Shown in pieces: positions 4,606 to 21,716 of a stretch of DNA of 37,191 nt. The position numbers and the translations under genes are program-made. Below the pieces are notes generated by a model that did no database searches, was not told the DNA's origin, and saw only the letters and a program-made list of their open reading frames with translations. Each line of letters opens with the position of its first letter. Position 1 is the stretch's first letter. The DNA lies in IMG/VR virus record IMGVR_UViG_3300037011_000065, positions 1 through 37,191 of that record. One strand, 5' to 3'. The DNA is from a virus.

Positions 4606-4608
4606 TTA

Positions 4609-6723: not shown

Positions 6724-6735
6724 TTTGTATAATAT
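6723..6735 (+). promoter_or_regulatory. TTTGTATAATAT promoter-like motif
   Basis: ATTTGTATAATAT begins at the last base of the sigma-like gene's stop codon, 25 bases before the ATG of the next gene (6760). It is one of four near-identical motifs in the window. No conserved -35 element is visible, so it resembles an extended -10 promoter. Confidence 0.5.
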
Positions 6736-6759
6736 AGTAATTAACTAAATTTTAAAATT

Positions 6760-7862: not shown

Positions 7863-8164
7863 AAGAATTTAACCATTTACCAGAATTAATTACCTATTTA
7901 TGGGAAGAGGACATTGCAAAGAACAATACAAGAATTTATTTTGATCCATTTCCAAAACACTTTGATTTTGATCAGAATGAGAATCCTCCCAGTTACTATT
8001 GTTCAATGACTCCTGAAGATGAAATGAATGTTCCAACCTCGGCTTTATTACTTGGAATAGGATACCATGGCTTTGTAGAATTTTTAATTGAAAAATTCTT
8101 AGTTACCTATTATAAAGAACATAAGAAAGACGTAAAAGGAAATCAAATTAGTACTAAAAATTAG
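7859..8164 (+). CDS. Hypothetical protein ending in TAG
   Basis: A 101-residue acidic protein rich in aromatic residues; no family is recognised. It overlaps the primase stop by 4 bases. Its TAG stop (8162-8164) is in frame with the next gene, whose ATG lies four codons on, so TAG readthrough would give one 263-residue protein. The default reading is two genes. Confidence 0.6.
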   Translation: MKEFNHLPELITYLWEEDIAKNNTRIYFDPFPKHFDFDQNENPPSYYCSMTPEDEMNVPTSALLLGIGYHGFVEFLIEKFLVTYYKEHKKDVKGNQISTKN

Positions 8165-8176
8165 ATAATCATTAGT

Positions 8177-8653
8177 ATGAAAAGAATAATTAACACAGAT
8201 GTTGATGCTCTTGACCTAACAAGAAATTATCATCAGGACAATGATATGAAACCCAGAGGTCTATGGTATGCCATAAATTATGAATGGTTAGCATGGTGTC
8301 ATGGAAACATGGATCATTGGATAAAACCTAACAACTTCTCCATTGACATAAACATAGATAAGATGTTAGTCATCTCCTCACGGGAGGAAATGAATGCGAT
8401 GATTATAAAATACGAAATAAAGATGAGAGAATCCTGGGCAATCAAAACAATGGATTGGGAAAGAGTTACCAAGGATTATGCAGGAATAGAAATAAGAAAT
8501 TACTACTCATTAAGAGGGTCTTCCCCATTTGAACACCTTTGGGTAAGTGGATGGGACATCTCGAGTGGTTATATTTGGGATCTATCAATAATTAAAACCG
8601 TTAAGAATGAAAAAATTAAAAACAAAAACTATTTATGTATTGCTGGAGAATGA
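8177..8653 (+). CDS. Hypothetical protein
   Basis: A 158-residue protein rich in tryptophan and tyrosine (GLWYAINYEWLAWCHGNMDHWIKP near residues 33-56), with no membrane helix. The central NFSIDINIDKMLVISSREEM segment reads as beta strands. No family is recognised. It lies in frame downstream of the TAG of the preceding gene and overlaps the next by 47 bases. Confidence 0.65.
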   Translation: MKRIINTDVDALDLTRNYHQDNDMKPRGLWYAINYEWLAWCHGNMDHWIKPNNFSIDINIDKMLVISSREEMNAMIIKYEIKMRESWAIKTMDWERVTKDYAGIEIRNYYSLRGSSPFEHLWVSGWDISSGYIWDLSIIKTVKNEKIKNKNYLCIAGE

Positions 8654-8810
8654 CAAATGGACTAAGGAAAGTATCCCGTCCGAAGTCATGGAAGAAAAGG
8701 TAATTCAATTCCTGTTAAACTCAAAGTATGGGGACCAGGGATGGAGGACTTATAAAATTAGGGAATCAACTAAATCTAAAATCAATGGGAAAGAGACAAC
8801 TGCACATTAA
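8607..8810 (+). CDS. Small hypothetical protein
   Basis: A 67-residue basic protein (MKKLKTKTIYVLLENDKW start). No family is recognised. It overlaps the end of the upstream gene by 47 bases and the start of the next by 26, so one of these boundaries may be wrong; the N-terminal 50 residues look convincing as protein. Confidence 0.5.
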   Translation: MKKLKTKTIYVLLENDKWTKESIPSEVMEEKVIQFLLNSKYGDQGWRTYKIRESTKSKINGKETTAH

Positions 8811-8988
8811 ACATGAATGGAAAGTATCTAACGGCCTACAGAAAGGCAAGTTATCACCACACACCTGCATGAGATGTAAGTGTGAGAAGTTTTACTCCAC
8901 AGAGTTTGACCAAACGGTGTACGTTGACAGGTTTGGAAAACTGTTCTACCGAGCACCCGAATGTGTCTTACCTAATACAAAACTATGA
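8785..8988 (+). CDS. Small zinc-finger-like phage protein
   Basis: A 67-residue protein with HEWKVSNG, then HTCMRCKCEKF (a CxxC pair with a nearby His), and a later CVLPN. This resembles the small single-zinc-finger proteins often found in phage replication regions. An in-frame ATG at 8728 exists, but 8785 is preferred because it reduces overlap with the preceding gene. Function unknown. Confidence 0.6.
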   Translation: MGKRQLHIKHEWKVSNGLQKGKLSPHTCMRCKCEKFYSTEFDQTVYVDRFGKLFYRAPECVLPNTKL

Positions 8989-9428
8989 TGAAAGAAAATT
9001 TGCTAATCATTGCCTTATTCCTTCTATCTTTTACAGTAAAGGCACCAGAAGGACTCCAATACTTTATTCTATTGGAATTGTTACCCTTACACCCATACAA
9101 TATCCAAGATCCTCTATTACTTTCTTTCGTTAAAGTAGAAAGTGACTTCAAGGAGGATGCAGTAAATGAAGTCAGCGGGGCAAGAGGAATCCTACAGATA
9201 CTTCCTTGTATGATAGATGAAGTTAACAGGATTTTAAAGCTGAATAAATACACTTGGGATGATGCATTTAATGCTTTTAAAAGCATGGAAATATGGTACA
9301 TAATTCAACAGTATCACAATCCAGAATATGACATTGAAAAAGCCTGTAAGATATGGTTCGGAAAAGGGGTACAATATGATGGCTGTACTTGGGAAGATTA
9401 TCAACGCAAAGTTATGAATAATGGATGA
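8985..9428 (+). CDS. Secreted lytic transglycosylase-like (SLT) protein
   Basis: A 147-residue protein. Residues 1-20 form a signal-peptide-like segment (KENLLIIALFLLSFTVKA). The core LLSFVKVESDFKEDAVNE then SGARGILQI matches the SLT goose-lysozyme-like fold, with E52 as the likely catalytic acid and A-G-L-Q-type following motif. Such enzymes cleave peptidoglycan glycan strands without water. In a replication region it is more likely a secreted accessory or lysis enzyme than a virion protein. Its ATG overlaps the previous stop. It is followed by a promoter and terminator region, so it closes this operon. Confidence 0.72.
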   Translation: MMKENLLIIALFLLSFTVKAPEGLQYFILLELLPLHPYNIQDPLLLSFVKVESDFKEDAVNEVSGARGILQILPCMIDEVNRILKLNKYTWDDAFNAFKSMEIWYIIQQYHNPEYDIEKACKIWFGKGVQYDGCTWEDYQRKVMNNG

Positions 9429-9441
9429 TCCTATTTATTTA

Positions 9442-9463
9442 AAATGAAATTTGTATAATATGT
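9442..9463 (+). promoter_or_regulatory. TTTGTATAATATGT promoter-like motif, copy shared with 13034
   Basis: The 22 bases at 9442-9463 are identical to 13034-13055, both starting AAATGAA and ending TTTGTATAATATGT. This identity between two short intergenic spaces suggests a functional site. TATAAT lies at 9454-9459, so transcription would start near 9466. Confidence 0.6.
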
Positions 9464-9465
9464 AG

Positions 9466-9588
9466 GACATAAAAATGAATTCAAGTATGAAGTCGGTCAT
9501 AGAAATCAAAGATAACCCGTTTTCATTTTTCTTAGGTTGGGTAAGGAAGGAGAAGGTGCCGACTCACTGGAACCTTCCTTACTTTTTT
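9466..9588 (+). ncRNA. Possible leader or small RNA between promoter and terminator
   Basis: A promoter-like motif (TATAAT 9454-9459) and a strong intrinsic terminator (9541-9588) bracket about 120 bases just before the replication genes at 9601. A transcript here would be a short RNA or an attenuated leader. AGTCGG at 9491-9496 is complementary to CCGACT at 9559-9564 in the terminator loop, which could form a pseudoknot or an alternative fold. A 39-codon frame (9475-9594) also runs through it. No known RNA family is recognised. Confidence 0.35.
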
Positions 9589-9594
9589 ATCTAA
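9475..9594 (+). CDS. Possible 39-aa leader peptide
   Basis: ATG 9475 opens a 39-codon frame ending TAA 9592-9594, just downstream of the promoter-like motif. Its last codons read through the terminator hairpin, giving repeated aromatic residues (WNLPYFFI). It could be a leader peptide that links translation to termination, or a chance frame in a non-coding RNA. Confidence 0.3.
   Translation: MNSSMKSVIEIKDNPFSFFLGWVRKEKVPTHWNLPYFFI
9541..9588 (+). terminator. Intrinsic terminator
   Basis: GTAAGGAAGG (9541-9550) pairs perfectly with CCTTCCTTAC (9573-9582) across a 22-base loop and is followed by six T (9583-9588). This is the clearest rho-independent terminator in the window. It stands only 12 bases before the next gene start, so it may work as an attenuator. 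Confidence 0.72.
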
Positions 9595-9600
9595 TACATC

Positions 9601-10200
9601 ATGAGAAGAACTAAGTTTCCATTCCGCGATGACATCGTGACAATAAAACTTTTTGACAAAACTGATAATGCATTTTTTACATTCACTGTAAGGAAGGACG
9701 TTTGTCGCGTGGACGTGAAAACACGTGGAGACATATATAGTATTTTTAATGGGATATATAAGAAAAAGAATAAAAATATAACACAGGGAAGCGCAAGCGA
9801 ATTAAAGAAACAGAAGTTAGAGGAAAAAATCAAGCCGTTTTTACCTGTCTCGGAAACATTGTATGATATTGTGAGTAAACACCTTGACATAAAAATAAAT
9901 AAGAATCATATAAAAACCTGGGCCGTTGAGATAGAAAGATTAATGAGCATAGATAAGATTTCAATAAAAAGAATGGAAAAGGTTTTAGACTGGTATGAAA
10001 AAAATATAGGAGGACAATATGTACCAGTAATTCATGCTGGGCCTTCCTTTAGAAAGAAATTTGTTAGTTTAGAACAAGCCATGTTTAGATCACTTAGAAA
10101 AGAACCATCTAAGTTTGAATGGCATAATGATATTAAATATCGAAGAGGAGAGGATAATAGATTATATCACGCAAGAACAGGAACTTTATATAAACCATGA
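9601..10200 (+). CDS. Predicted replication protein / helicase loader
   Basis: A 199-residue basic protein. The middle (LYDIVSKHLDIKINKNHIKTWAVEIERLMSIDKISIKRMEKVLDWYEKN) has the helical pattern seen in phage replication-initiation and helicase-loading proteins such as DnaD/O-like domains, followed by FRKKFVSLEQAM. Its position directly before the helicase gene, overlapping it by ATGA, supports this role. No catalytic motif is visible. The role is inferred from context and a weak pattern; sequence identity with a known loader is not established. Confidence 0.55.
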   Translation: MRRTKFPFRDDIVTIKLFDKTDNAFFTFTVRKDVCRVDVKTRGDIYSIFNGIYKKKNKNITQGSASELKKQKLEEKIKPFLPVSETLYDIVSKHLDIKINKNHIKTWAVEIERLMSIDKISIKRMEKVLDWYEKNIGGQYVPVIHAGPSFRKKFVSLEQAMFRSLRKEPSKFEWHNDIKYRRGEDNRLYHARTGTLYKP

Positions 10201-11444
10201 TAGAAAGAAAAATTGTTATAGGATTAATTACTTCTACAGAGTTCTTGCGAGGGATCAAGGACATTTGGGAGTCAAAATTGTTAGAGTCAGATGTTGCTAG
10301 GCGTCTGTCAAATTGGTGTTGGGAGTACTATAACAAGTATGAAGAAGCACCTGGCAGAGAAATAGAAACTATTTTCTATAGCAAAATTAAAGACTCAACT
10401 TTCCCAAAGGCTATCGCAGAAGAGATTGAACAGGATATATTACCAGCGTTAAGTAAAGAATTTGAGATTACAGAATTCAACGTAGAATATGTTCTTGAAG
10501 AGGCTATTAAATATTTGAACGATAGACATCTTGCCCGTCACAATGAAGATGTTGAAGCCCTTCTTGCCGCAGGGAAAAGAGAGGAGGCAGAAAAGTTAGC
10601 CCTGTCATATAAACCTTTAGGTGGTAGTCAAATTAACATTGAGGATCATATACTTGATATTACACAAATTAGAGAATTAAGAATAACCCATCCAACAATG
10701 ATATTAAAACCCTGGTTAAGGGAAGGTCAGGTAACTATTTTGTATGGTAACTTTGGTACAGGTAAATCTTTGCTAACCTTGTTAATTGGATACTTGGTAG
10801 GGTTAAAAGATCCTACCAGCAAATATGCACAGATAGGAAGATGGCAGGTAAAAAATTCAACAGGTTGTCTTTATGTTGATGGGGAATTAGGTCTGGTGGA
10901 GATGGAAGAAAGATTAAAACAATATGAATGGTTAGGAGAACAGGCAGGACCAAGAAGAATACAAATATTTTCTTTGCCCGAGTATCAAGTTGCATCGGAA
11001 GATACATTTAACCTAGCATCAAGGGTTAATCAAATAAAAGTATTGCATTGGTTAAGAGAACATCCAAAATACAAATTGATTATATTGGATAGTGCAAGTA
11101 CTTTATTTGGATTAGAAGATGAGAATAGTAATTCAGAGTGGAGCAATAAAATTAATCCAATGCTGAGGGAACTTCGTGCAATGGGTATAGCCTGTTTACT
11201 TTTACATCACTCAGGGAAGGATGGTAGAAGAGGGTTAAGAGGAGCCTCTGCAATGGGTGCTATGGCTCATAATATTTACAGGATAACGGATCATGAAAAT
11301 AAAGATCAAGACGATGGGGAGGCTTGGTTTACTCTGTTTAAAGATAAGCAAAGAGCAGGCGGACTTTTATTCAGGACATTTTCAATACATTTTAGTCAGA
11401 CAGATAATAAAAGAGAAACGCATTGGGAAGTTACAGACAATTAA
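10197..11444 (+). CDS. Replicative helicase, RecA-fold (DnaB/RepA-like)
   Basis: A 415-residue protein. The N-terminal 140 residues are helical, as in DnaB N-domains. The RecA-like ATPase follows: Walker A GNFGTGKS (about 184-191), CLYVDGELG strand, Walker B LIILDSAS, and a DnaB/RepA-type LLLHHSGKDGRRGLRGASAM motif near residues 335-355. This fits hexameric 5'-3' helicases of the AAA_25/RepA group that unwind phage DNA with the primase. It is coupled to the putative loader upstream. It could instead be a RadA-like ATPase, but the operon context favours the replicative helicase. Confidence 0.85.
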   Translation: MIERKIVIGLITSTEFLRGIKDIWESKLLESDVARRLSNWCWEYYNKYEEAPGREIETIFYSKIKDSTFPKAIAEEIEQDILPALSKEFEITEFNVEYVLEEAIKYLNDRHLARHNEDVEALLAAGKREEAEKLALSYKPLGGSQINIEDHILDITQIRELRITHPTMILKPWLREGQVTILYGNFGTGKSLLTLLIGYLVGLKDPTSKYAQIGRWQVKNSTGCLYVDGELGLVEMEERLKQYEWLGEQAGPRRIQIFSLPEYQVASEDTFNLASRVNQIKVLHWLREHPKYKLIILDSASTLFGLEDENSNSEWSNKINPMLRELRAMGIACLLLHHSGKDGRRGLRGASAMGAMAHNIYRITDHENKDQDDGEAWFTLFKDKQRAGGLLFRTFSIHFSQTDNKRETHWEVTDN

Positions 11445-11456
11445 ATCAATTAAATT

Positions 11457-11642
11457 ATGGACAACACGAGAGGACAATTCGAACCAATTACTCAAACCAA
11501 ATTTGAGGAGCAGATGCAGAAACCAGAACCCTTAGTATTCCAGAAGGGAGAGATTATAGAAATACGCGGAAGTAGATTCCGAGTGATGGAAATCAGAGCA
11601 AATGGATCATTAAAGTTGAAACTATTACCAAAAATTAAGTAA
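11457..11642 (+). CDS. Small SH3-like phage protein
   Basis: A 61-residue protein whose second half, VFQKGEIIEIRGSRFRVMEIRANGSLKLKLLP, has the strand pattern of a small SH3-like barrel common in phage accessory proteins. No function is assigned. It follows the helicase and precedes the next gene by 2 bases. Confidence 0.65.
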   Translation: MDNTRGQFEPITQTKFEEQMQKPEPLVFQKGEIIEIRGSRFRVMEIRANGSLKLKLLPKIK

Positions 11643-11644
11643 CA

Positions 11645-11905
11645 ATGAAACACGCAAGACCAGATTACGATCAGATTCAAGATCCTGCAGGATTAATTCC
11701 TGAGGATGAACCAGTGTTCCTTTTACGGGGACAGGATGTATTAGCTCCAAAGTTATTGGATCGTTGGGCCAAGAAATTATTAGCCAAAGGAGGTAGTATT
11801 GAAATGGCTGATATTGTTTTTAAACACGCCGAAGCTATGTTAAGATGGCAGGCTACCCATAAAAAGAAAGTTCCAGATTTACCACAACTCCCTAAATCAG
11901 AATGA
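11645..11905 (+). CDS. Small conserved phage protein
   Basis: An 86-residue protein with the pattern DEPVFLLRGQDVLAPKLLDRWAKKLLAKGG ... AEAMLRWQ. From memory, similar small proteins of unknown function occur widely in phage genomes. It sits one base before queD, so it may be co-transcribed with the modification operon. Confidence 0.7.
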   Translation: MKHARPDYDQIQDPAGLIPEDEPVFLLRGQDVLAPKLLDRWAKKLLAKGGSIEMADIVFKHAEAMLRWQATHKKKVPDLPQLPKSE

Positions 11906-11906
11906 G

Positions 11907-12260
11907 ATGTTTAAAATTAGAAAAGAGTTTGCTTTCTCAGCAAGTCATTGCTTAGATCACTTACCTGAGGAACATCCATGTGCAAGGGTACATGGACACA
12001 ATTACGTGGTAACTATTGAATTATGGTCCTCACATTTAAATCAAAATGGGTTCGTTAAAGACTACCGTGAATTACAATCCATTAAGGATTTTATTGACAA
12101 TAAGTTGGATCATAGACATCTAAATGATGTTCTTCCTTGTATGCCAACGGCAGAACTTATAGCCTCACATCTATTCATCCTTTTTAGAAATGAATATCCA
12201 CAACTAATGGCAATTGAGGTGAGTGAAACACCTAAAACGTCTGCAAGGTATGAGCCCTAA
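11907..12260 (+). CDS. queD: QueD, 6-carboxy-tetrahydropterin synthase
   Basis: A 117-residue protein of the 6-pyruvoyl-tetrahydropterin synthase fold. It converts dihydroneopterin triphosphate to 6-carboxy-5,6,7,8-tetrahydropterin, the second step to preQ0. Visible are the zinc histidines in FSASHCL (H14) and VHGHNY (H29, H31), the catalytic C25 in PCARVHGH, LDHRHLND, PTAE, and the substrate-binding EVSETPKTSARYE. The length is normal for QueD. It overlaps queE by 11 bases and starts the 7-deazaguanine operon. Confidence 0.93.
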   Translation: MFKIRKEFAFSASHCLDHLPEEHPCARVHGHNYVVTIELWSSHLNQNGFVKDYRELQSIKDFIDNKLDHRHLNDVLPCMPTAELIASHLFILFRNEYPQLMAIEVSETPKTSARYEP

Positions 12261-13020
12261 GATCATCATTGAAGCCCTACCTAAGGATCAGTATATACCA
12301 ACCTACAAAGGGGGATTAGTATATCTAAATGTAGCAGAGTTTTACTTTGATACAATTCAAGGAGAAGGAATTTACACAGGATATCCTGCCGCGTTTCTCA
12401 GACTGCAGGATTGTACATTGAATTGTGTCTACTGTGATACTTCTTTAGTGTGGAAAAAAGGTAATCCTTACGCCACCCCGGATCTATTGGCTAAAATGAA
12501 TTCAACAGGTTTAGTAGATAAGTTACGTGCAGGACAGCATTTAGTTCTCACGGGTGGAAGTCCATTGAAACAACAACAAAAATTGATATTACTAATCAAT
12601 GAATTTATCTATCAGTTTGGATTTAAACCCTTCATAGAAATAGAGAACGAGTGTATTCTTATGCCAACACCTGAAATGATAGCCCTTGTAGATTGTTGGA
12701 ATAACTCTCCAAAGTTATCAGATTCAGGTATGCCTTTCAAAGTAAGGTATAATTCATTGGTACTTGGTACATTAGGAACCTTGAATAATTCATGGTTTAA
12801 GTTTGTTGTCACCTCAGAGGAAGATTGGGAGGAAATAAGTATGGACTTTATAGAGCCAGGATTTATTGAAAAAGATAGAATCATACTTATGCCCGAGGCG
12901 GCCACCCAGGCAGAACTGTTCTCTTTACAAGATAGGATAGTATCAATGGCAATACGGCATAACGTCCGTTACTCCACTAGGCTCCATATTGCGCTGTGGG
13001 ATAAAAAAATTGGGGTATAA
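12250..13020 (+). CDS. queE: QueE, 7-carboxy-7-deazaguanine synthase
   Basis: A 256-residue radical SAM enzyme that rearranges carboxy-tetrahydropterin to 7-carboxy-7-deazaguanine (CDG). It has FDTIQGEG (33-40), the cluster motif CTLNCVYC (C55, C59, C62, CX3CX2C) and VLTGGSP, all typical of QueE. ATG 12250 is preferred over an upstream in-frame ATG at 12223 because it leaves only an 11-base overlap with queD. The C-terminus RLHIALW resembles the QueE ending R.HK.iW with K replaced. Confidence 0.92.
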   Translation: MSPKIIIEALPKDQYIPTYKGGLVYLNVAEFYFDTIQGEGIYTGYPAAFLRLQDCTLNCVYCDTSLVWKKGNPYATPDLLAKMNSTGLVDKLRAGQHLVLTGGSPLKQQQKLILLINEFIYQFGFKPFIEIENECILMPTPEMIALVDCWNNSPKLSDSGMPFKVRYNSLVLGTLGTLNNSWFKFVVTSEEDWEEISMDFIEPGFIEKDRIILMPEAATQAELFSLQDRIVSMAIRHNVRYSTRLHIALWDKKIGV

Positions 13021-13033
13021 CGGGCGTGGAACC

Positions 13034-13055
13034 AAATGAAATTTGTATAATATGT
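13034..13055 (+). promoter_or_regulatory. TTTGTATAATATGT promoter-like motif, copy shared with 9442
   Basis: These 22 bases are identical to 9442-9463. TATAAT is at 13046-13051, about 45 bases upstream of the ATG at 13102. It would provide a separate promoter inside the modification operon, driving the acidic protein, folE and downstream genes. Confidence 0.6.
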
Positions 13056-13101
13056 CGTAATAGTTTTTAATAAATTTAGTATTAATCAAAATTTGAATGA
13101 A

Positions 13102-13782
13102 ATGGCTAATGAAAAGCAGTTGCGTAAAGCCGCAGCAGAGTTGAATGATGTCATGGGACTCGATCCCGATATCGACACCAAAGGAAGTGTCAAGGAATTG
13201 ACAGCAGGCATTGCCGAGGCAATCGACAAAATTGATCCCGACGATGAATTTACTGAGGCTACTCAGGCCGTGATTGATGAACTCACACCTAAGAAGAAAG
13301 GAAAGAAAGAAAAACCCGCTCCTGAACCGGAAGATGATGCCGATGATGATACCGACGATGATGCCGATGATGATGATGATGAGGATGATGAGGATGAAGA
13401 ACCGGCTCCGAAGAAGAAAGGTAAACCCGCACCCGCTCCCGTAAAGAAAGGGAAGGTACCTGTTAAGGATGATGAGGATGATGAGGATGATGAGGATGAT
13501 GAGGATGATGAGGAAGAAGCCCCGAAAAAGAAAAAAGCCGGTGGCCCTCCCAAAGGTGTGAAACCCAGTTTTAAGAAAGAGGGTTCGATGGCACAGTTCA
13601 TGGACGATACGGTCAAAGAGGGTGGAACCTGGGACGAGCTTCTTGCTACGATCGGCAAGGAGGCCAAGAAGAGGGGAGTCAAAACATCGCTGTCCACAAT
13701 CAAGGCACACGTTAAGTTTCGTGTCAGTAAGGATCCCAAATTCCTTGGTAAGTTAAAAATTACCGCTGATGGGGTTGAGTAA
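13102..13782 (+). CDS. Acidic/lysine-proline-rich low-complexity phage protein
   Basis: A 226-residue protein. Residues 1-60 form a helical domain ([18 protein letters not shown] ... [10 protein letters not shown]). The middle alternates Asp/Glu runs with Lys/Pro/Ala runs. The C-terminal 65 residues ([22 protein letters not shown] ... [11 protein letters not shown]) look like a small basic helical domain. Codons end in C or G more often than in neighbouring genes, and it has its own upstream motif at 13034, both fitting high expression. Role unknown; a nucleoid- or DNA-associated protein is possible. ATG 13102 is preferred over a TTG at 13093. Confidence 0.72.
13468..13512 (+). repeat. Five tandem copies of GATGATGAG
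   Basis: A perfect 9-base tandem array inside the acidic gene encodes five Asp-Asp-Glu units. It is prone to copy-number change and to assembly errors. Similar but less regular Asp/Glu runs occur in the SSB gene near 27150-27390. Confidence 0.85.
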
Positions 13783-14332
13783 GATCGAAATCATTACTCA
13801 AATTTTACAACACCTGGGGGAGGATCCAACCAGAGAAGGGTTAAAGGAAACTCCCCACCGTGTTGTGAAGTCTTGGAGTGAACTGTATGCTGGCTATGGA
13901 CAAGATCCGGCCAGCATATTTACGACTTTTACTGAGGTAGAAGGATACCAGCAAATTGTTATATTGAAAGATATTGAACTCTATTCGATGTGTGAACACC
14001 ATATGTTACCCTTCTTTGGAAAGGCTCATGTAGCGTATTTACCCAAGGGCAAGGTTGTTGGTATATCAAAACTTGCAAGAATCGTAGACATTTATGCTAG
14101 ACGTCTCCAAATACAGGAGAGGCTTGGACAACAAGTTACTTCTGCTTTAATGACATATCTAGAACCACAGGGTGCGGCTTGTATCATTGAAGCCAGCCAT
14201 ATGTGTATGCGTATGAGAGGTTGTTCTAAACAAAATTCAACAATGATTACTTCTTCTCTAAAGGGTGTCTTCCTAGAAGACGTTATGGTAAGATCAGAAT
14301 TACTTCAATTAATAAGTTTAAATGATGTATAA
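13769..14332 (+). CDS. folE: FolE, GTP cyclohydrolase I
   Basis: A 187-residue type I GTP cyclohydrolase, making dihydroneopterin triphosphate from GTP, the entry step to 7-deazaguanines. Motifs are complete: [14 protein letters not shown] (19-32), the zinc site CEHHMLPF (C75, H77/H78), [22 protein letters not shown] (98-119) and HMCMRMRG (H144, C146). Length is typical. It overlaps the acidic gene by 14 bases and the dehydrogenase gene by 11, tying it to the modification operon. Confidence 0.95.
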
Positions 14333-14948
14333 AGCACTGGTTACAGGAGCGTCCTCCGGTATTGGGTTAGCCATATATGAGGGACTCAAACAAGATGAAC
14401 AATTTAGTGAGGTACTTGGATTGAGTAGGCATGGCCCTGATTTATTTATAAATTTATCAATGCCTGTGCCCTGGACTGAACCTCTTATGAAAAAGGTGGA
14501 CTTACTGGTTAATTGTGCTGGGATCATGCCTCTCGATGGAGAGATGCCAATTATAATGGATGTCAACTTTTGGGGTACATACTGGATGATTATGAATTTA
14601 AAAAATTCTTTTACAAATGGAAGTTGCATAATAAACATAGCATCCGTATCTGGCTTAATCCCTGAACCAGACTTACCTGTGTATGCCGCATCAAAGGCGG
14701 CCGTAATCTCACTAACGAAAAGTCTTGCTAAAAAGTTTGCACCTGCTATTCGTGTGAACTGTATCAGCCCTGGTTTCTACAAAACAAATCTTGTGGAGGG
14801 AGATACTCCACAGTATTTAATTGATGAGATACCATTGGGCTATGAAGATTATCCTGAAAACCTTGTCCCCATTGTCAAAGTAATTTGGAATGCAGGGTAT
14901 ATGACGGGTGCTAATATTGTAATAGATGGAGGACTTAGTATATGTTAA
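14322..14948 (+). CDS. Short-chain dehydrogenase/reductase
   Basis: A 208-residue classical SDR. Visible are the NAD(P)-binding TGASSGIG (8-15), NCAG (64-67), the serine region INIASVSG (104-111) and the catalytic YAASK (Y121, K125), then a C-terminal [10 protein letters not shown]. All catalytic residues are present, so it should be an active oxidoreductase. Its substrate is unknown. It overlaps folE and the radical SAM gene, so a role in tailoring the 7-deazaguanine base or an attached sugar is likely but inferred. No QueF-type reductase is seen in the window. Confidence 0.9.
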
Positions 14949-15967
14949 ATTCATTAACTTATTTAACCAGAGGTTGTCCTCGGAATTGTGAATACTGTAA
15001 CCTACGAGACGCAAAAAATGTAGGTCAAAGGTTAACTATTGACGAATGGAAGACAGCCTTTCAGATATTAAAAGACGTAGGAATTAATTTTAACTTGATC
15101 TTAGGTAACGAAACATGGTTATTGGGGGGTTCCCTGCTAGATCTTATGAGGTCAAATCAAGTTCCTTATGCTCTTTACACCACTTGCCCAGAACCTTTGT
15201 TCAGTACGTACAGGGATGAATTCTTTGGCTCGGGTATAATTGACAATTTGTCCTGCGGTGTAGATTATGCCCCATTACCAGATATGTTTCAACCAACGGA
15301 TGATTCATACAAAAAGTCAATAGACGCTTTGAAAGGACTTGCTTGGCTCAGGGATCACTACCCAGACATGGATGCACAGGGTACTATTACCGTGCACAAA
15401 GGGAATCTAGAACAGTTACCAAATCTTGTAAACCTATTGACTTATATGAGGGTGTTCATTGGGATTAACTTTATTCATTGGAATAAGGACGGTCAGTATG
15501 ACTTCTTTCCATCCTATGATGAGATAGAACACCTCTTGTTTAAGAAGGAAGACTCAATGGAAGTAACAAAAATGATGTTTCAGTTGAGGGAAATAGAAGG
15601 GAACCTAATTCAAAATCCTGAGTTTATTATTCAACGTCCTTCTATATTAACACAGATGGGATGGCATTGTAAAGGTAATCCCTATGGAGGTCCTACCATT
15701 GATGCTGATGGACAACTGAGATGCTGTGGTTATCGGAGGGGTACGCATACTCCTGTCATGTCAATTTTTGACCTACCGGGTAATTGGGACATATGGAAAG
15801 ACTTGGTGTACAAAGACGCAATGGAATGCCCAGGCTGTGCTTGGTCTTACCCTTGGATGTATCACTATTGGGAAGCAACAGATCCTCGCATGGGAGAGAA
15901 GGTATTTGTCAAGCATGCAGGAAGACATATTTCAAAAGATAAATGGTCTAAAAGGAAAATAGAATGA
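14942..15967 (+). CDS. Radical SAM enzyme with C-terminal Cys-rich (SPASM-like) region
   Basis: A 341-residue protein. The N-terminal YLTRGCPRNCEYC has the CX3CX2C iron-sulfur motif (C12, C16, C19). The C-terminal third has further cysteines (WHCKGNPYGG, RCCGYRRG, ECPGCAW), suggesting auxiliary cluster ligands as in SPASM/twitch enzymes, and IDADGQLRCCG is typical of that region. It is distinct from QueE. Such enzymes perform radical C-H chemistry, rearrangements or methylthiolation. It sits between the SDR and a methyltransferase, overlapping both by 4-7 bases. The reaction is unknown. Confidence 0.85.
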   Translation: MLNSLTYLTRGCPRNCEYCNLRDAKNVGQRLTIDEWKTAFQILKDVGINFNLILGNETWLLGGSLLDLMRSNQVPYALYTTCPEPLFSTYRDEFFGSGIIDNLSCGVDYAPLPDMFQPTDDSYKKSIDALKGLAWLRDHYPDMDAQGTITVHKGNLEQLPNLVNLLTYMRVFIGINFIHWNKDGQYDFFPSYDEIEHLLFKKEDSMEVTKMMFQLREIEGNLIQNPEFIIQRPSILTQMGWHCKGNPYGGPTIDADGQLRCCGYRRGTHTPVMSIFDLPGNWDIWKDLVYKDAMECPGCAWSYPWMYHYWEATDPRMGEKVFVKHAGRHISKDKWSKRKIE

Positions 15968-16638
15968 AAAGTTTTAACGAAGGAAACATTCAATTGTTTA
16001 ATAAAACCATCTTAGACGATGCGTTTAATGACACTTACCAAAACGAAGACTTGTATAATGGTTATATCAGTGGTACTGTTCAGCTAAATAGATTACTGGA
16101 TAACAAAGACATACAAAGGATTCGTGATATAACTGATCCACGACAAGTTTTAAATGTGGGTGCAGGTCAGGCTAACTTAACCCTGTTTCCAAGACACACT
16201 CAGGTGGAGAATTTAGAACCTTGCCCACAAAGGAAGAAGGAAGGTACAATCGAAGGGTGGAGTGAAAACATTCCAAACAATGCTCACTCATATGATGTTA
16301 TAGTCTGTTGGGGTGTACTTTGCTTTGTAAGGGGATTACCTGAGACGATGATAGAATTTAATCGTGTCTTAAAACAGTATGGACACTTGGTTGTGGATAC
16401 AGTAACATATTCAACGATGGCACTTGCCCAGACAGTACACCCAGATAGTTTTGTAAGATGGGCAGGTCTGTTTGGATTTGAACTTGAGGAGAAAATTGAG
16501 TTCGGGGAGCATTACCATCAAAGGATGGGATACAGGTTTAAAAGAGTGGCAAACTTTGATCCTACAAGATTTCGTATGCCACAATGTGAAGGAAAAATTA
16601 ATAACTATCTGCCAGAAAGGGACTGGTTTATGAGGTAA
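15964..16638 (+). CDS. Class I SAM-dependent methyltransferase
   Basis: A 224-residue protein with a methyltransferase-11-like core: motif I VLNVGAGQA (about 62-70), IEGWSENIP, motif IV YDVIVCWGVLCFV, and EFNRVLKQYGHLVVDTV as motif VI. It has none of the target-recognition or NPPY motifs of DNA-base methylases. Within this operon it may methylate a small-molecule precursor, a base side chain or a sugar; that is inference. It overlaps the radical SAM gene by ATGA and abuts queC. Confidence 0.82.
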   Translation: MKSFNEGNIQLFNKTILDDAFNDTYQNEDLYNGYISGTVQLNRLLDNKDIQRIRDITDPRQVLNVGAGQANLTLFPRHTQVENLEPCPQRKKEGTIEGWSENIPNNAHSYDVIVCWGVLCFVRGLPETMIEFNRVLKQYGHLVVDTVTYSTMALAQTVHPDSFVRWAGLFGFELEEKIEFGEHYHQRMGYRFKRVANFDPTRFRMPQCEGKINNYLPERDWFMR

Positions 16639-16639
16639 C

Positions 16640-17203
16640 ATGATTGAACATAAAGTTATTCTATTATTAAGTGGAGGGCTTGATAGTACTCTATTGTTTA
16701 GGATGGCAAAGACTTTCCAGCTTCGTCCATATTGTATATTAATTGATTATAATCAAATACATAAACAGGAATTGGAGTTTGCCGTTGCTATCTGTAAAGA
16801 AGAAAACACTCCTTATCAAATTGTACATCTTGAAATAGATGTTGCATCTAAATTGACAACAGAAGATCTGTATGAAACAAAAGATGTACAACCTTACAAA
16901 GGGGTATCCCCATGGCACGTGCCAAGTAGAAATCTAATGTTTGTTGCAATAGCGGCAAGTATTGCTGAAAGTTTGAACGTAGATGAAATATGGTACGGAG
17001 CCAATTACGACGACCGAGAGAACCTATTCCCTGATTGTTATCAGGAGTGGGTATATGAGGTTAATAAACTATTAGAAATGAATGGGAGTAAGAAGATTAC
17101 TCTACGAGCTCCTCTCTTAGGCCTTAACAAAAAGGTGATAGAGTTTTTGTGTGATGTATTTAATGTAAATAAAACAAAAGTATTCAGCGGTTATGGACAA
17201 TGA
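16640..17203 (+). CDS. queC: QueC-like PP-loop enzyme lacking the C-terminal zinc cluster
   Basis: A 187-residue ATP pyrophosphatase. The PP-loop SGGLDST (11-17), VPSRNLMFVAIAASIAE and YPDC-equivalent FPDCYQEWV all match QueC, which converts CDG to the amide ADG and then to preQ0 using ATP and ammonia. E. coli QueC is about 231 residues and ends with a four-cysteine zinc site. This protein stops just before that point (FSGYGQ) and has no such cysteines. The downstream sequence in other frames does not supply them. It may stop at the amide, or use a different activated product. It overlaps the next gene by 11 bases. Confidence 0.85.
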   Translation: MIEHKVILLLSGGLDSTLLFRMAKTFQLRPYCILIDYNQIHKQELEFAVAICKEENTPYQIVHLEIDVASKLTTEDLYETKDVQPYKGVSPWHVPSRNLMFVAIAASIAESLNVDEIWYGANYDDRENLFPDCYQEWVYEVNKLLEMNGSKKITLRAPLLGLNKKVIEFLCDVFNVNKTKVFSGYGQ

Positions 17204-17567
17204 CAAAACTTTTACGAAATTAGTGGACAAGCAATACAGTCCACTGGTAATCAGAAAATATACGCATTGGGGTTTCCCAATCTATATAGGTTTGATTACG
17301 GACAATGATCTAAGCAACTTGGATGAGATATGTACCGAGTTTATTAAGACAAACATCGCAGACTGGGTGAATAATATTCAGAGTCTCAGAAACTTTGCGG
17401 GCAGGTTTTGTGATCACTTAAACCAAGTGTATGAGAAAACAGAAGGGGTAGCAGTTGTGTTATACGTTGACAAATGCTTTATCTCCTCTCTGTATGGAGA
17501 CTTTATGAACCACGAGTCCTGCAGGATCGAGTTCTACGGGTTGCTCAATATGAGTACAGGTGTATGA
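17193..17567 (+). CDS. Unknown protein in the modification operon
   Basis: A 124-residue soluble protein with no family I recognise. It has a tyrosine/tryptophan-rich start (YSPLVIRKYTHWGFPIYIGLI) and a C-terminal half with LYVDKCFISSLYGDFM. It overlaps queC by 11 bases and the PIG-L gene by ATGA, so it is probably translated with them. A role as a partner or a new tailoring factor in the DNA-modification pathway is plausible from position only. Confidence 0.7.
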   Translation: MDNDKTFTKLVDKQYSPLVIRKYTHWGFPIYIGLITDNDLSNLDEICTEFIKTNIADWVNNIQSLRNFAGRFCDHLNQVYEKTEGVAVVLYVDKCFISSLYGDFMNHESCRIEFYGLLNMSTGV

Positions 17568-18037
17568 AAAACTTTACAATCATAGCACCACACGCCGACG
17601 ACGAAATCATTGGTTGTTATGAACTGTTAGCCAGTGGTTTAGTCAAGTCAGTATTGTTCCCTGATAGAGTAACAATGGAAGAGGCTGAAGCTTCAAGTGA
17701 ACATTTTTTGTTTACAAGAGGTCTGATTGAGGACGAGGACTTTTATCGGTTCAATGAAAGAGTGTATGTCTTTCCAGACCCCTATTTCGAAGCCCATCCC
17801 AAACACAGGGAACTGGGTTCACTCGGAGAGGCTCTGCTTCGGCAAGACAGGCACGTAATTTTTTACAGTACTACAATGTCCGCGCCGTACATTCATGAGG
17901 TGTCACAGGCTGTAATCAAGCAGGTTTGCCTAAACAAGTTGTATCCTAAAAAGGCAAAGTTGTGGGAGTACGAACATAAGTACTTTCTCTTTGAAGGTTA
18001 TAATGAATGGATTGTAAAATGGGACGTCTCATTATAG
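17564..18037 (+). CDS. PIG-L/LmbE-family deacetylase
   Basis: A 157-residue protein starting MKNFTIIAPHADDEIIGC. The PHADDE (9-14) gives the His-Asp zinc ligands and catalytic Asp of the PIG-L family, and HPKH near residue 75 may supply another histidine. Family members remove acetyl groups from N-acetylglucosamine conjugates (GPI, mycothiol, bacillithiol). It is shorter than typical (about 220-250). ATG 17564 is preferred over 17474 because it overlaps the upstream stop as ATGA. It precedes a glycosyltransferase, suggesting the pair builds an amino sugar. It ends in TAG. Confidence 0.8.
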   Translation: MKNFTIIAPHADDEIIGCYELLASGLVKSVLFPDRVTMEEAEASSEHFLFTRGLIEDEDFYRFNERVYVFPDPYFEAHPKHRELGSLGEALLRQDRHVIFYSTTMSAPYIHEVSQAVIKQVCLNKLYPKKAKLWEYEHKYFLFEGYNEWIVKWDVSL

Positions 18038-18957
18038 TACCACAGTATCCCACCAAACTGAGATATCAGGAATGGTGGATTAACGAGTTCCAACGTCATT
18101 TTAATATTCTCTTTGGAGAGGTTGTCACTTTGGGGTACAGACCACTCGTAGAACAAAGAGCACAACAAGGATCATTTGCTCCAGGTAGGGAGGCTATCAA
18201 ATTTGAGACAGAGCAGATAAATGAGTTTATGGAAATGAAGTTACGGGACGATGACATCCTATTACTGAACGATTTAAGTTACCCAGGTTTGTTCGCCCAC
18301 GTACTGTTTCACAAACGCCCTAAGAAGTGCTTTGCTATTTGCCATGCTACAAGTAAAAACAGATTTGATATCTTTGCTGATGACAGGAAAATTAAATATC
18401 CTATTGAACGAAAGGTAGCAGAACTGTTCGACGACATATTTGTAGCCTCAGCATACCACGTACATAAGTTGGGATGGAAAAACCTTAGGATGTTTCCTTT
18501 CCCCTACCCACCATTTGAAGTAGATGTTCCCAATTCTTTTATTAGAGTATACCCCATAATAAGTGTTGCAAGGGATTCAAAACAAAAACGATCGGTAACA
18601 ATAGAGAAGGAGGTAGAAAGATCATTCAAATGTAAAATACTTCATCCCAAAGTTTTCTCTTGGAATGAATATTATTATGAAGCATTGGGAAGGAGTAAAG
18701 TTATGCTTATAACTGCAAAGGAAGAGACGTTTGGTTACCAAGTACTTGATGCCGTTTTAGCCGGTTGTATCCCTGTCGCCCCAAATCATTTTAGCTATCC
18801 CGAGTTGATTCCAAAAGAATATTTGTATAATAACTTAAACGAGTTATTTGACATACTAATCAAAGCACTTTCAGGTAGACTGCCAGTGCCGAAGTTGTTA
18901 ACTGAATCCAACTCTTTAAAGTTTTATCAATACTTAACAGAACATATGACAAAATGA
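18019..18957 (+). CDS. GT4-like glycosyltransferase
   Basis: A 312-residue protein starting MGRLIIVPQYPTKLRYQEWW. The C-terminal half has the retaining GT-B pattern KEETFGYQVLDAV (about 233-245) and then LAGCIPVAPNHF and SYPELIPKEYLYN. From memory this run resembles the C-terminus of GTDC1/QTMAN, the enzyme that mannosylates queuosine in tRNA; the motif also occurs in other GT4 enzymes. ATG 18019 is preferred over 18007. It overlaps the PIG-L gene by 19 bases and dpdA by ATGA. A role in glycosylating a DNA 7-deazaguanine is inferred. Confidence 0.8.
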   Translation: MGRLIIVPQYPTKLRYQEWWINEFQRHFNILFGEVVTLGYRPLVEQRAQQGSFAPGREAIKFETEQINEFMEMKLRDDDILLLNDLSYPGLFAHVLFHKRPKKCFAICHATSKNRFDIFADDRKIKYPIERKVAELFDDIFVASAYHVHKLGWKNLRMFPFPYPPFEVDVPNSFIRVYPIISVARDSKQKRSVTIEKEVERSFKCKILHPKVFSWNEYYYEALGRSKVMLITAKEETFGYQVLDAVLAGCIPVAPNHFSYPELIPKEYLYNNLNELFDILIKALSGRLPVPKLLTESNSLKFYQYLTEHMTK

Positions 18958-20042
18958 AAGCAAAGGTAATGTTAGACTCTGGTGCCTATACCGCACACAG
19001 AAAAGGAAAGCAGATCAATTTGGAGGCGTACGCTGAGTTTGTTAAAAAGTATCAATCCGAATTCTTTGCTTGTTTTAACCTGGACTCTATTGGCTCAGGT
19101 AAAGATGAACAAAAAGCAAAGTCAGTAGAAGGAGCAATTACAACCGCAGAACAAAGTTACCTTAATTGGAGGGAGTTGCAAAGCATGGGAGTAAATACCA
19201 TTCCTATTTATCACCTGGGAACAAATGTGCAATGGTTAAAAAAGTACCTAAAGGAAACTGATTATATAGCAATAGGTGCCATAGCAAACCTTAACACAAC
19301 GAAAAGGTTAATGGGGTTAAGTCATATTTGGAAAAACTATTTGACAAATGCAGACCAAACACCAAGGGTAAAGGTGCATGGGCTGGGGTTAACTGCTGTA
19401 GACATTATGATAAGGTATCCTTGGTACTCCGTTGACTCATTTACTCCTGTTATATCTGCGGTATGGGGAAGTATTCTTCTGCCTAAACTTGATAACAAAG
19501 GTGAACCTCACTTCTTTAACATGACAATTAACAAAGTTTCTGACCAGGGGGATCATAAGGATAATATGGAAAACAGTTATCTAAATGTCCCTGAAAGGAA
19601 CAAAAAGGTGAACCAACAAATGTTTGAAGATGAAGGGTTTGAGTTAGGAGAGATTGCCTACCAAGTAAAGAGGGATAGGAGAGGTAAAAAAGGAGAGCAG
19701 GAAAGGAAACCTCCAAAGCTACCTGGATTTGATTTAGTTAAACCTTCTAATCCTGACGTTCAAACATTGGCTAACAGTTGGGAGATTAGGATGAAGTGGA
19801 ACCTAATAATGTGGAATCACCTGCGGGAGAGGTTACCTGTTTACCCAAGGTCCTTCATAGACGTAGATGATGCTTGGGATGAGTGTGTAAACAATTATGC
19901 CAAGACAAATATGTTTATGGGTGTCTCCACTTTAACTCATTTGGAAATCTTTAGCATGATAAAACCGAAGTTAGACATATTAATCAGTTATGCCTATATG
20001 ACGGAAGGGATTCATAAGTCAATTAAAAACTATGTAAAATGA
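18954..20042 (+). CDS. dpdA: DpdA-type DNA guanine transglycosylase
   Basis: A 362-residue TGT-fold protein. LDSGAYTA (7-14) carries the aspartate equivalent of the TGT DSGGF active site, followed by FACFNLDSIG, YIAIGAIAN and KVHGLGLTAVD, with YPWYSVDS as in phage DpdA proteins. DpdA exchanges guanine in DNA for a 7-deazaguanine base. There is a charged insertion near residues 240-260 (RDRRGKKGEQERKPP). I cannot assign a DpdA subfamily by eye. Its presence with queD, queE, folE and queC strongly implies modified phage DNA. It overlaps both neighbours by ATGA. Confidence 0.87.
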   Translation: MKAKVMLDSGAYTAHRKGKQINLEAYAEFVKKYQSEFFACFNLDSIGSGKDEQKAKSVEGAITTAEQSYLNWRELQSMGVNTIPIYHLGTNVQWLKKYLKETDYIAIGAIANLNTTKRLMGLSHIWKNYLTNADQTPRVKVHGLGLTAVDIMIRYPWYSVDSFTPVISAVWGSILLPKLDNKGEPHFFNMTINKVSDQGDHKDNMENSYLNVPERNKKVNQQMFEDEGFELGEIAYQVKRDRRGKKGEQERKPPKLPGFDLVKPSNPDVQTLANSWEIRMKWNLIMWNHLRERLPVYPRSFIDVDDAWDECVNNYAKTNMFMGVSTLTHLEIFSMIKPKLDILISYAYMTEGIHKSIKNYVK

Positions 20043-20707
20043 AAAATCAAGGTCCTTCTCCTCTCCTTGAGGTGGAGAAGTCAAAAAGAATTACGAACTC
20101 AGGAACAGACACTCTACGTGATGATGTAGAAGGGTTTATGATTCCTGAGTTGAGAAAGTACGGGTACGATGGAAGGTTAGTCACAGCCGACGAAGTTAAT
20201 CAAAAACAAGCACGGAAAGACTACGAAGCTAATTCCAAAACACACCCAAGGGATATTTTGTTTCACAAAGCCTCAGGATTGTTTCTTGAGATTTGGAAAC
20301 AGGGTAGAACCACGCCCAAACTTGTTTTAAAACCTTTCGTAAGGGATTCAATAGCAGAGGTAGAAGGACTCCCCAGGTACAATTTAAACGCAAGAGTGGT
20401 AGAAGCTATGATGACCTACGCCAAGGATGCGGCTCGGGTAAAAGCAATTATGAGAGCCTTCTTTGCGTTGGATATGAGGTTCTTAATAATGACAAGGACA
20501 GGTCAGTTTTGGTTAGGTCCATTCCCCAGCATTAAAGATCACCAGTACTACTTAACCTATCGCAAGGATAAGAATGTATTGGATAGGGTAGCCGCCTTGT
20601 CTGAGGTAAAAATTGGAAAGTTTCACAGCATTAAAAAGGAACTGGCAAATGAGATAAAAGTGAATATGTATTACTTCAACAAAAATAATAAATATGATCG
20701 TAAATAA
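20039..20707 (+). CDS. Unknown protein after dpdA
   Basis: A 222-residue basic protein of no recognised family. Segments such as GYDGRLVTADEVNQKQARKD and FFALDMRFLIMTRTGQFWLGPF look like folded alpha/beta structure. It overlaps dpdA by ATGA and the sliding clamp gene by 14 bases. It may be the last member of the modification operon or the first of the replication block. The frequent Lys/Arg content suits DNA binding, which is only a guess. Confidence 0.7.
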   Translation: MKNQGPSPLLEVEKSKRITNSGTDTLRDDVEGFMIPELRKYGYDGRLVTADEVNQKQARKDYEANSKTHPRDILFHKASGLFLEIWKQGRTTPKLVLKPFVRDSIAEVEGLPRYNLNARVVEAMMTYAKDAARVKAIMRAFFALDMRFLIMTRTGQFWLGPFPSIKDHQYYLTYRKDKNVLDRVAALSEVKIGKFHSIKKELANEIKVNMYYFNKNNKYDRK

Positions 20708-21716
20708 AGAAGAGTTGCAAAAAGCCTTAGAAATTGTCAAGCCTGGGCTTGCCAACAAAGAGCAAATTGAACAGTCAACTTCCTTTGCTTTTATAAAAGG
20801 TAGAGTCATTACGTACAACGATGAGATAAGTATATCACATCCGGTACCTGGGCTGGAAGTTGAGGGGGCTATCTTGGCTGAGAATCTGTACAAATTTTTA
20901 ACCAAGATAAAAAAGGAAGAGATTACTCTTGAATTAGCAGGTAACGAAATACTCCTGACCTCAGAAAAGGCTAAGGCAGGTTTACTGTTACAAACTGAAA
21001 TCAAACTTCCTTTAGATGAAGAGGTGTCACAAAAAGGTAAATGGTATCCCTTACCAGTACATCTTGTTCCTGGACTTGCCTTTTGTATGACGGTTTGTTC
21101 AAGAGATATGAGTCGTCCTGTATTGACTTGTATCCATGTAAATAAAGCAGGATACCTTGAAGCCAGTGACAGTTACAGGATTGTCAGGTATCAGATTGAG
21201 GAAGAGATGCCAATAGAAACCTTCTTAATCCCTGCAATGGCTGCCGTAGAAGTGGTAAAATTAAAACCTGTTAAAATTACAGGTGGAAAAGGATGGGTTC
21301 ATTTTAAAAATGAAAATAATACCATACTGTCCTGTCGTATCTACGAAGAGAAATATCCTACCACGAAAGGGTTCTATACAAATGAGGGTGTAAGGGTGAT
21401 CCTACCAAAAACTACGGAAGAAATGTTGGCAAGGGCACAAGTGTTTTCAAAGAGGGAACACGTATTGGACGAATGGATTTCCGTTACTATTGAGAATCAT
21501 GTATTTAAGATAGAATCTAGATCTGATACAGGATGGTTTAATGAAACATCTAAGATCAAGTTTGAAGGGGATGTTATTAACTTTGACATTACACCTTACC
21601 TGTTAAAAGGAATACTGGCTGAGACAAGAGGTTTCAAATATACCTCGGATAAGCTAACCTTTGAAGGGGAACGCTGGTTATATGTATCAACTTTGAGACA
21701 AAGAAAAATCAAATGA
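20694..21716 (+). CDS. DNA sliding clamp (DnaN-like)
   Basis: A 340-residue protein with the beta-clamp pattern: CSRDMSRPVLTCIHVNKAGYLEASDSYRIVRYQIEEEM (about 138-178) corresponds to the start of the second clamp domain in DnaN (..RPVL.GI......L...ATD..RL). Length is near the usual 366 residues of DnaN. It would tether the polymerase and be loaded by the clamp loader at 24389. Overall divergence is strong, so the call rests on that segment, the length and the replisome context. Confidence 0.82.
   Translation: MIVNKEELQKALEIVKPGLANKEQIEQSTSFAFIKGRVITYNDEISISHPVPGLEVEGAILAENLYKFLTKIKKEEITLELAGNEILLTSEKAKAGLLLQTEIKLPLDEEVSQKGKWYPLPVHLVPGLAFCMTVCSRDMSRPVLTCIHVNKAGYLEASDSYRIVRYQIEEEMPIETFLIPAMAAVEVVKLKPVKITGGKGWVHFKNENNTILSCRIYEEKYPTTKGFYTNEGVRVILPKTTEEMLARAQVFSKREHVLDEWISVTIENHVFKIESRSDTGWFNETSKIKFEGDVINFDITPYLLKGILAETRGFKYTSDKLTFEGERWLYVSTLRQRKIK

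Follow-up and report, generated by a model that had tools for sequence, protein, structure and literature searches.

The stretch of DNA analysed here (the window) corresponds to a single virus record of IMG/VR (IMGVR_UViG_3300037011_000065; 37,191 bases), and the gene in question encodes a predicted glycosyltransferase (GT) within an operon of 7-deazaguanine genes, immediately upstream of the gene for DpdA, a DNA guanine transglycosylase. The GT is preceded by a PIG-L/LmbE-type de-N-acetylase and by a small T-fold protein. Judging from sequence, model and analogy with known enzymes, we propose, with a probability of about 0.58, that the GT and the PIG-L protein form a pair giving an amino-sugar 7-deazaguanine in phage DNA, by transfer of N-acetylglucosamine (GlcNAc) or another N-acetylated sugar and subsequent removal of the acetyl group. 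The three genes and dpdA lie as follows:

17193-17567, plus strand: small T-fold protein, 124 amino acids, the most conserved member of the core (model and VIA fold comparison)
17564-18037, plus strand: predicted PIG-L/LmbE-type de-N-acetylase, 157 amino acids (PF02585 family matches; motifs PHxDDE and HPxH)
18019-18957, plus strand: GT, GT-B/GT4-like, 312 amino acids (start by homologue alignment; Pfam and NCBIfam profiles, model, fold comparison)
18954-20042, plus strand: DpdA, DNA guanine transglycosylase, 362 amino acids (phrog_887 'queuine tRNA-ribosyltransferase', E 3e-43)

All three peptide stretches that a preliminary description of this DNA had quoted for the GT (KEETFGYQVLDAV, LAGCIPVAPNHF and SYPELIPKEYLYN) are present in a plus-strand open reading frame (ORF), and the gene stands at the position it had given. 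The longest reading frame runs from 18007 (316 amino acids), and 18019 is an in-frame ATG 12 bases further in (312 amino acids); because the homologues begin at the equivalent position (MSRLILVPQYP in L003, MRLIVVPQYP in L022), the alignment makes a start at 18019 likelier than one at 18007. The four-base overlap with dpdA that had been described was also found (GT stop at 18955-18957, dpdA ATG at 18954), and the GT gene overlaps the preceding PIG-L-like gene by 19 bases. By its sequence the ORF is that of a real protein and not a chance ORF, because relatives occur at 14 viral-contig loci (L015-L028; 40-59% identity) and the flanking genes are tightly packed.

Against the window GT alone, the Pfam model Glycos_transf_1 (PF00534) reached E 0.0034 and 17.4 bits (curated cut-off 26.4), and it matches 7 of the 13 GT family members at E<=0.1, the best at 8e-12. 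The sole NCBIfam match of the window GT is weak (BshA equivalog model TIGR03999, E 0.041), its 12.8 bits lying far under the cut-off of 273.7. The AlphaFold2 model (10 sequences; mean predicted local distance difference test score (pLDDT) 83.5) aligns over its full length with GT4 structures and has the two-Rossmann GT-B fold in the VIA fold comparison, where the top row is BshA with uridine diphosphate (UDP) and malate (3mbo_B, Z 19.9, root-mean-square deviation (rmsd) 3.8, 285 aligned), at about 15% identity. A cyanobacterial glucosyltransferase (19.8), other BshA entries (19.3 and 19.2) and a tetrahydrobiopterin glucosyltransferase (19.0) are tied with it within one Z unit, the first 15 rows include four BshA entries besides the top one as well as 2jjm, a GT4 of B. 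anthracis, and Foldseek gave 106 matches at E<=0.001. These closest rows, among which malate is the acceptor of BshA, are not cell-wall or lipid glycosyltransferases, the placement that the preliminary description had named as telling against it, though MshA (Z 17.5), PimA and TarM lie about 2.4 Z units under the top. R-x4-K and EX7E are known GT4 motifs, and H109, R185, Q189 and K190 occupy positions with recognised roles; the family possesses the R-x4-K and EX7E-type residues, these four being invariant in 10 of 10 aligned rows (alignment A7) and acidic residues standing at positions 236 and 244 in every row. The gene is, from sequence and model, a predicted soluble glycosyltransferase of the GT-B/GT4 type, and its earlier identification as a glycosyltransferase holds, given the PF00534 matches in the family and the full-length GT4 fold. 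In the model, the fold settles the class of the GT and not its donor sugar, because BshA leads other GT4 structures by less than 1 Z unit.

The same description had likened the C-terminal run of the GT (YPE..P..YLY) to that of the queuosine tRNA mannosyltransferase QTMAN (GTDC1). QTMAN shares the 7-deazaguanine theme and has a GT4-type C-terminal domain like the window GT, and a QTMAN-like enzyme that puts mannose on a queuosine-type 7-deazaguanine, in DNA and not in tRNA, would agree with the GT4 fold and with the gene context. However, the motif falls in the Glycos_transf_1 region, which GT4 enzymes have in common, and QTMAN_N (PF12038) matches none of the 13 family members at E<=0.1 (nor did it match in the genome of L029 or in 14 control genomes); no QTMAN structure is among the best 50 VIA rows listed for the GT, which excludes nothing. 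According to excerpts of PMC12518689, the site to which QTMAN attaches alpha-mannose is the allylic 3-hydroxyl on the cyclopentene of queuosine. QueA (PF02547) was found in 0 of 19 records, some of which may be fragments, the same search being positive in 9 of 14 control genomes, so that, as far as the records go, these phages do not make the queuosine diol which is the acceptor of QTMAN. A de-N-acetylase neighbour would, moreover, be senseless for mannose. Kinship with QTMAN is not supported by the sequences, and mannose transfer of this kind seems very improbable; of the earlier claim, action on 7-deazaguanine in DNA keeps its footing through the tie of the family to 7-deazaguanine genes, whereas mannose is disfavoured, since the PIG-L gene next door points elsewhere.

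Both genes upstream of the GT had been missed in the preliminary description, and PIG-L would point to an N-acetylated sugar and its later de-acetylation, not to mannose. PF02585 matches 9 of 9 PIG-L family members at E<=1 (best 3.1e-7); the window protein itself scores E 0.054 and 14.4 bits (cut-off 28.2), and the model is over cut-off in the record of L028 and in Xanthomonas phage PhiXhv-12. The metal motifs (A/S)PHxDDE and HxxH, whose roles in PIG-L/LmbE enzymes are well established, are kept in 9 of 9 rows. A profile search of the PDB gave four sequences (E 0.037-0.13), two of them uncharacterised, including PH0499, and two named as diacetylchitobiose deacetylases (E 0.058 and 0.063). Against 50,697 phage records the window PIG-L found Xanthomonas phage X1 (E 5e-9) and two Escherichia phage rows which were dropped as chance level (E 0.8-0.9), and the PhiXhv-12 protein found just its own four-record group; PIG-L relatives thus appear to be rare in phages.

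The model of the T-fold protein (pLDDT 82.3; order beta-beta-alpha-alpha-beta-beta-alpha) has the T-fold core of GTP cyclohydrolase I (VIA, Z 13.6 to 7alc_B, 97 aligned, rmsd 1.7) and reaches Z 10.2 to QueF-like archaeosine synthase. The zinc ligands of GTP cyclohydrolase I are C-x2-H and a later C; nothing equivalent to the CEHH zinc stretch of the window's FolE is seen in any of the 9 T-fold rows of alignment A5, compared by eye without structural superposition. Because this stretch is missing, the protein may alter the side group of the 7-deazaguanine. It had no match at E<=0.1 in the 50,697 phage records, and a PDB search with its profile gave nothing useful.

Used alone as a query in viral contigs, the window GT found no relative; alignment queries were used instead, and these gave the 14 loci mentioned above and a further one, L029, on a contig filed under a Woesearchaeota metagenome-assembled genome. 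L015 lies on the same contig as L002 and L016 on that of L003, and L022-L027 carry nearly the same stretch, which together with the window makes 11 distinct contigs. Over the 15 loci (L015-L029) the GT is present in 15, PIG-L in 14, the T-fold protein in 13 and the window-type DpdA in 12. The contig of L020 begins inside the GT, so that no PIG-L or T-fold gene is visible, and that of L021 begins inside PIG-L, so that the T-fold gene is out of reach; a divergent DpdA lies downstream in L021 and, at a distance of 5.3 kb, in L029 (phrog_887, E 1.6e-6 and 1.9e-6). T-fold, PIG-L and GT follow one another in that order in 9 of the 9 distinct contigs (of 11) that reach far enough upstream, mostly beside dpdA, with an extra short ORF between T-fold and PIG-L in the L022 group. 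The short-chain dehydrogenase (SDR) had no match in L015, L016, L017, L028 and L029, and the methyltransferase none in L017, L019, L028 and L029 (the contigs of L020 and L021 start too far downstream to show either gene); because both are missing in several loci, T-fold/PIG-L/GT is the constant core.

Besides the core trio and its divergent DpdA, L029 has a DNA polymerase and genes of phage type; it is probably a virus of that sample, its host being uncertain. Two loci that came from a DpdA search, L013 and L014, are without a GT, PIG-L or T-fold match. In L013 (3-1205), from a related phage with replication proteins 48-69% identical, a divergent DpdA (26%) comes no more than about 170 bases after FolE; because nothing of the cassette lies between them, the cassette from the radical S-adenosylmethionine (SAM) gene to the GT seems to be a module that is acquired or lost in one piece.

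Named phages carry a distant branch of the GT, and the two branches are one family (hhalign 99.7%, E 5.2e-26 over 286 columns), sharing in most rows an N-terminal P...RY...W stretch. The X1 GT matches 16 of the 50,697 phage records (X1, ACP17 (two), Phosso, BUCT-ZZ01 and eleven PA5oct-type Pseudomonas phages). MT839637, a 4.1 kb fecal record with E 0.5, was dropped as chance level. The association of the GT with 7-deazaguanine genes extends over many phages, the distant branch lying in such clusters of Xanthomonas, Acidovorax, Sinorhizobium, Synechococcus and Pseudomonas phages: the 16 records form five groups, and in the one record read per group the GT is clustered with QueE (5/5), FolE also being in the cluster in X1, ACP17, Phosso and BUCT-ZZ01, and a Tgt-like protein beside the GT or one gene off in X1, ACP17, PAC2 and BUCT-ZZ01. 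PIG-L lies beside or one gene from a GT of the same family in X1 (by profile, E 5.9e-23) and in PhiXhv-12, where a Gat-QueC fusion, PIG-L (Pfam E 3.5e-7), the GT and a Gfo/Idh-type oxidoreductase stand in a row; the GT and PIG-L of PhiXhv-12 recur in three near-identical records, its QueD is located elsewhere, and a possible transglycosylase was seen just as phrog_10773 (E 0.0017). This distribution also bears on another reading, in which the target of the GT is a protein or the host envelope, where it would serve receptor masking or superinfection exclusion, and its place in the operon is accidental. GT4 enzymes are common in envelope synthesis, and phages carry serotype-converting GTs, but the present GT recurs inside 7-deazaguanine clusters of unrelated phages, its gene overlaps dpdA, and no clear relatives were found in other phage contexts, which makes an envelope or protein target quite improbable.

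Several further genes stand out in named phages. In L005 (PhiXhv-12), the region 4276-13533 holds a leucyl/phenylalanyl-tRNA-protein transferase annotation and several hypotheticals besides the Gat-QueC, PIG-L, GT and Gfo/Idh oxidoreductase genes; some of the hypotheticals are possibly acetyltransferase-like, and the amino sugar might then be further acylated. A small protein, phrog_17812, occurs with the distant branch in L004 (18642-19013), L008 (11618-12001), L009 (13024-13407), L010 (13141-13518) and L011 (11695-12057), and in 26 of the 50,697 records, including Cellulophaga, Vibrio, Aeromonas, Rhizobium and Chryseobacterium phages. It might be the decarboxylase DpdL that Cui et al. 2023 reportedly described; a comparison of the X1-type protein with the T-fold protein of the window gave no support for a common family (hhalign 1.1%). 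In L010 (Pseudomonas phage PAC2, 14324-14758) and L011 (Synechococcus phage BUCT-ZZ01, 7150-7611), QueE has a phosphoribosyltransferase gene as its neighbour. In Stenotrophomonas phage Ps15, the queuosine cluster from ORF135 (FolE) to ORF141 (QueE) encloses ORF137, a "myo-inositol-1-phosphate synthase" (excerpts of PMC9025141), which hints at another case of sugar-like or inositol-like decoration in deazaguanine clusters.

The remaining genes of the operon in the window, together with the ORF that follows dpdA, are:

11907-12260, plus strand: QueD, 6-carboxytetrahydropterin synthase (TIGR03367, E 1.9e-24; 85.9 bits, cut-off 89.25)
12223-13020, plus strand: QueE, 7-carboxy-7-deazaguanine synthase (TIGR04349, E 8e-19, under curated cut-off)
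13093-13782: acidic low-complexity ORF between QueE and FolE, its position kept in most relatives
13769-14332, plus strand: FolE, GTP cyclohydrolase I (NF006825, E 1.3e-76, 256 bits against a cut-off of 174)
14322-14948, plus strand: SDR, optional (PF00106, E 3.7e-27)
14942-15967, plus strand: radical SAM protein bearing CxxxCxxC, additional cysteines being conserved towards the C-terminus (PF04055, E 8.7e-6, under cut-off)
15964-16638, plus strand: SAM-dependent methyltransferase-like protein, optional cassette member (PF13489, E 1.9e-8)
16640-17203, plus strand: QueC-like enzyme, 187 amino acids, without the C-terminal zinc motif (PF06508, E 4.9e-30, over cut-off)
20039-20707: conserved ORF right after dpdA (4-base overlap), without a Pfam match, with relatives in L015 (L002), L016 (L003) and L017

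From the acidic ORF at 13093 to the clamp-like ORF at 20694 (genes 13093 to 21716), all neighbours overlap or lie 1 base apart, a packing typical of translational coupling. With a DpdA-type transglycosylase, FolE, QueD and QueE, the window holds a 7-deazaguanine DNA modification cluster, and like other phage 7-deazaguanine systems it unites these genes and a QueC relative in one operon; it differs in adding the T-fold/PIG-L/GT cassette and in the absence of the zinc motif from its QueC relative. Cui et al. 2023 reportedly described eight 7-deazaguanine derivatives, none of them with a sugar. The Pfam TGT model is insensitive here (nothing in 18 of 19 records, sub-threshold in PhiXhv-12) and its silence carries no meaning; DpdA of the window, of G001 and of G002, on which that model is silent, is recognised by phrog_887. 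For QueF, PF14489 was positive in 9 of 19 records, W05 and W06 among them, but the seven hits compared by coordinates (window, G001, G002, G004, G005, G006 and W04) fall within folE and are T-fold cross-matches rather than a QueF. The radical SAM protein has C12, C16, C19, C243, C261, C262, C296 and C299 invariant in 3 of 3 rows.

Phage DNA glucosyltransferases that act on hydroxymethylcytosine are well known, the T4-type enzymes using 5-hydroxymethylcytosine, and the GT might on this precedent glycosylate a hydroxymethylpyrimidine, independently of deazaguanine. Thymidylate-synthase-family genes, present in 5 of 18 records, would suit such a role, but none was found in the window, G001, G002, G004-G007 or G010-G012 (records which may be fragments), and the genes to which the GT is linked are those of deazaguanine; a pyrimidine target is most improbable.

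The QueC relatives keep SGGxDS, YxQxHxxE and VPxRN (or VPARN/VPGRN), have FPDC (FADC in L022) where QueC has YPDC, and end before the zinc cysteine cluster in 6 of 6 rows (window 16640-17203, L002, L003, L017, L018 and L022). Canonical QueC is defined by the zinc motif C(x)8CxxCxxC together with nucleotide and substrate motifs, and Cap9 and QatC, which are related to QueC, join carboxy-deazaguanine with protein amines (both from excerpts of PMC13329287). The window protein does not have C(x)8CxxCxxC and, by its sequence, may not be a preQ0 synthase. It could be imagined that the joint product of the GT and PIG-L is a free amino-sugar conjugate, similar to bacillithiol or mycothiol, that the zinc-less QueC-like enzyme links the amine of this conjugate as an amide to the carboxyl of 7-carboxy-7-deazaguanine, and that DpdA inserts the whole base with its cationic sugar. 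The retained catalytic motifs, the missing zinc motif, the precedent of Cap9 and QatC and the adjoining, amine-generating PIG-L would all fit. However, L028 and L029 have the trio without a window-type QueC match in the stretches searched, the QueC match of L019 is remote (25%, not at the usual position), and Cap9 and QatC, as reported in the excerpts of PMC13329287, keep the zinc motif; we regard an amide-linked conjugate as unlikely.

In the pathway that we favour, with the sugar transferred to the 7-deazaguanine, FolE, QueD and QueE would make 7-carboxy-7-deazaguanine, the C7 group would be altered by the QueC-like and T-fold proteins and by the optional radical SAM, methyltransferase and SDR proteins, and DpdA would exchange the base into DNA. 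The GT, a soluble enzyme of the retaining GT4 type, would use a UDP-sugar to place GlcNAc (or another N-acetylated sugar) on the 7-deazaguanine, most likely once DpdA has inserted the base, although adjacency to dpdA does not decide between DNA and the free base. Action on 7-deazaguanine in (or for) DNA appears likeliest because the GT family is tied to 7-deazaguanine DNA-modification genes. PIG-L would remove the acetyl group, leaving a positively charged amino-sugar 7-deazaguanine which may shield the phage DNA from restriction; such protection is proposed because other 7-deazaguanines are known to guard phage DNA against restriction (excerpts of PMC6884629). Neither glycosyl nor sugar, deacetylase or PIG-L turned up in a text search of PMC6884629, and the openly licensed papers searched contained no report of a sugar on 7-deazaguanine in DNA.

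An N-acetylated sugar with subsequent de-acetylation is proposed because enzymes of the PIG-L class follow BshA and MshA: BshA makes GlcNAc-malate, which BshB de-acetylates, and MshA and MshB act likewise (excerpts of PMC4360819). These pairs resemble the phage genes in that a PIG-L/LmbE-type de-N-acetylase accompanies a soluble enzyme of the GT4 type, BshA being also the closest fold row; they differ in serving thiol synthesis, whereas the context here is DNA modification, and in the low identity and TIGR03999 score given above. The tetrahydrobiopterin alpha-glucosyltransferase (cyanobacterial BGluT) shares the GT4 fold (Z 19.0 to 9v0l, 18.8 to 5zes), and its acceptor is a pterin, chemically near deazaguanine, but it has no de-acetylase and is 13% identical to the phage GT, and to our knowledge no DNA context is known for it. 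A sugar on phage DNA, as proposed here, is also the product of the T4 alpha- and beta-glucosyltransferases (excerpts of PMC13216743) and of further phage DNA glucosyltransferases; in the present case the base would instead be 7-deazaguanine and the sugar de-acetylated.

Several observations weigh against transfer of an N-acetylated sugar to 7-deazaguanine and its de-acetylation. Carboxy-, amido- and cyano-7-deazaguanine offer no free alcohol as acceptor group; BshA and other GT4 structures are within 1 Z unit, and the window proteins score under the curated cut-offs of PF00534 and PF02585. No PIG-L was detected in Phosso, ACP17, PAC2 and BUCT-ZZ01 despite their GT, and because these four distant-branch groups are without a detected PIG-L, de-acetylation is optional in the wider GT family. 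The PIG-L of PhiXhv-12 was matched by Pfam but missed by profile A6, and L028 has the core trio and a radical SAM relative but no DpdA in the parts read.

If the proposal is true, phage DNA holds a glycosylated, de-acetylated (cationic) 7-deazaguanine, and the hypermodification of phage bases would be linked with the logic of GlcNAc transfer and de-acetylation known from bacillithiol and mycothiol. The named Xanthomonas phage X1 has the GT, PIG-L and transglycosylase close together, which makes the proposal directly testable. The proposal also yields candidate enzymes for DNA glycosylation and a candidate new reaction of the QueC type.

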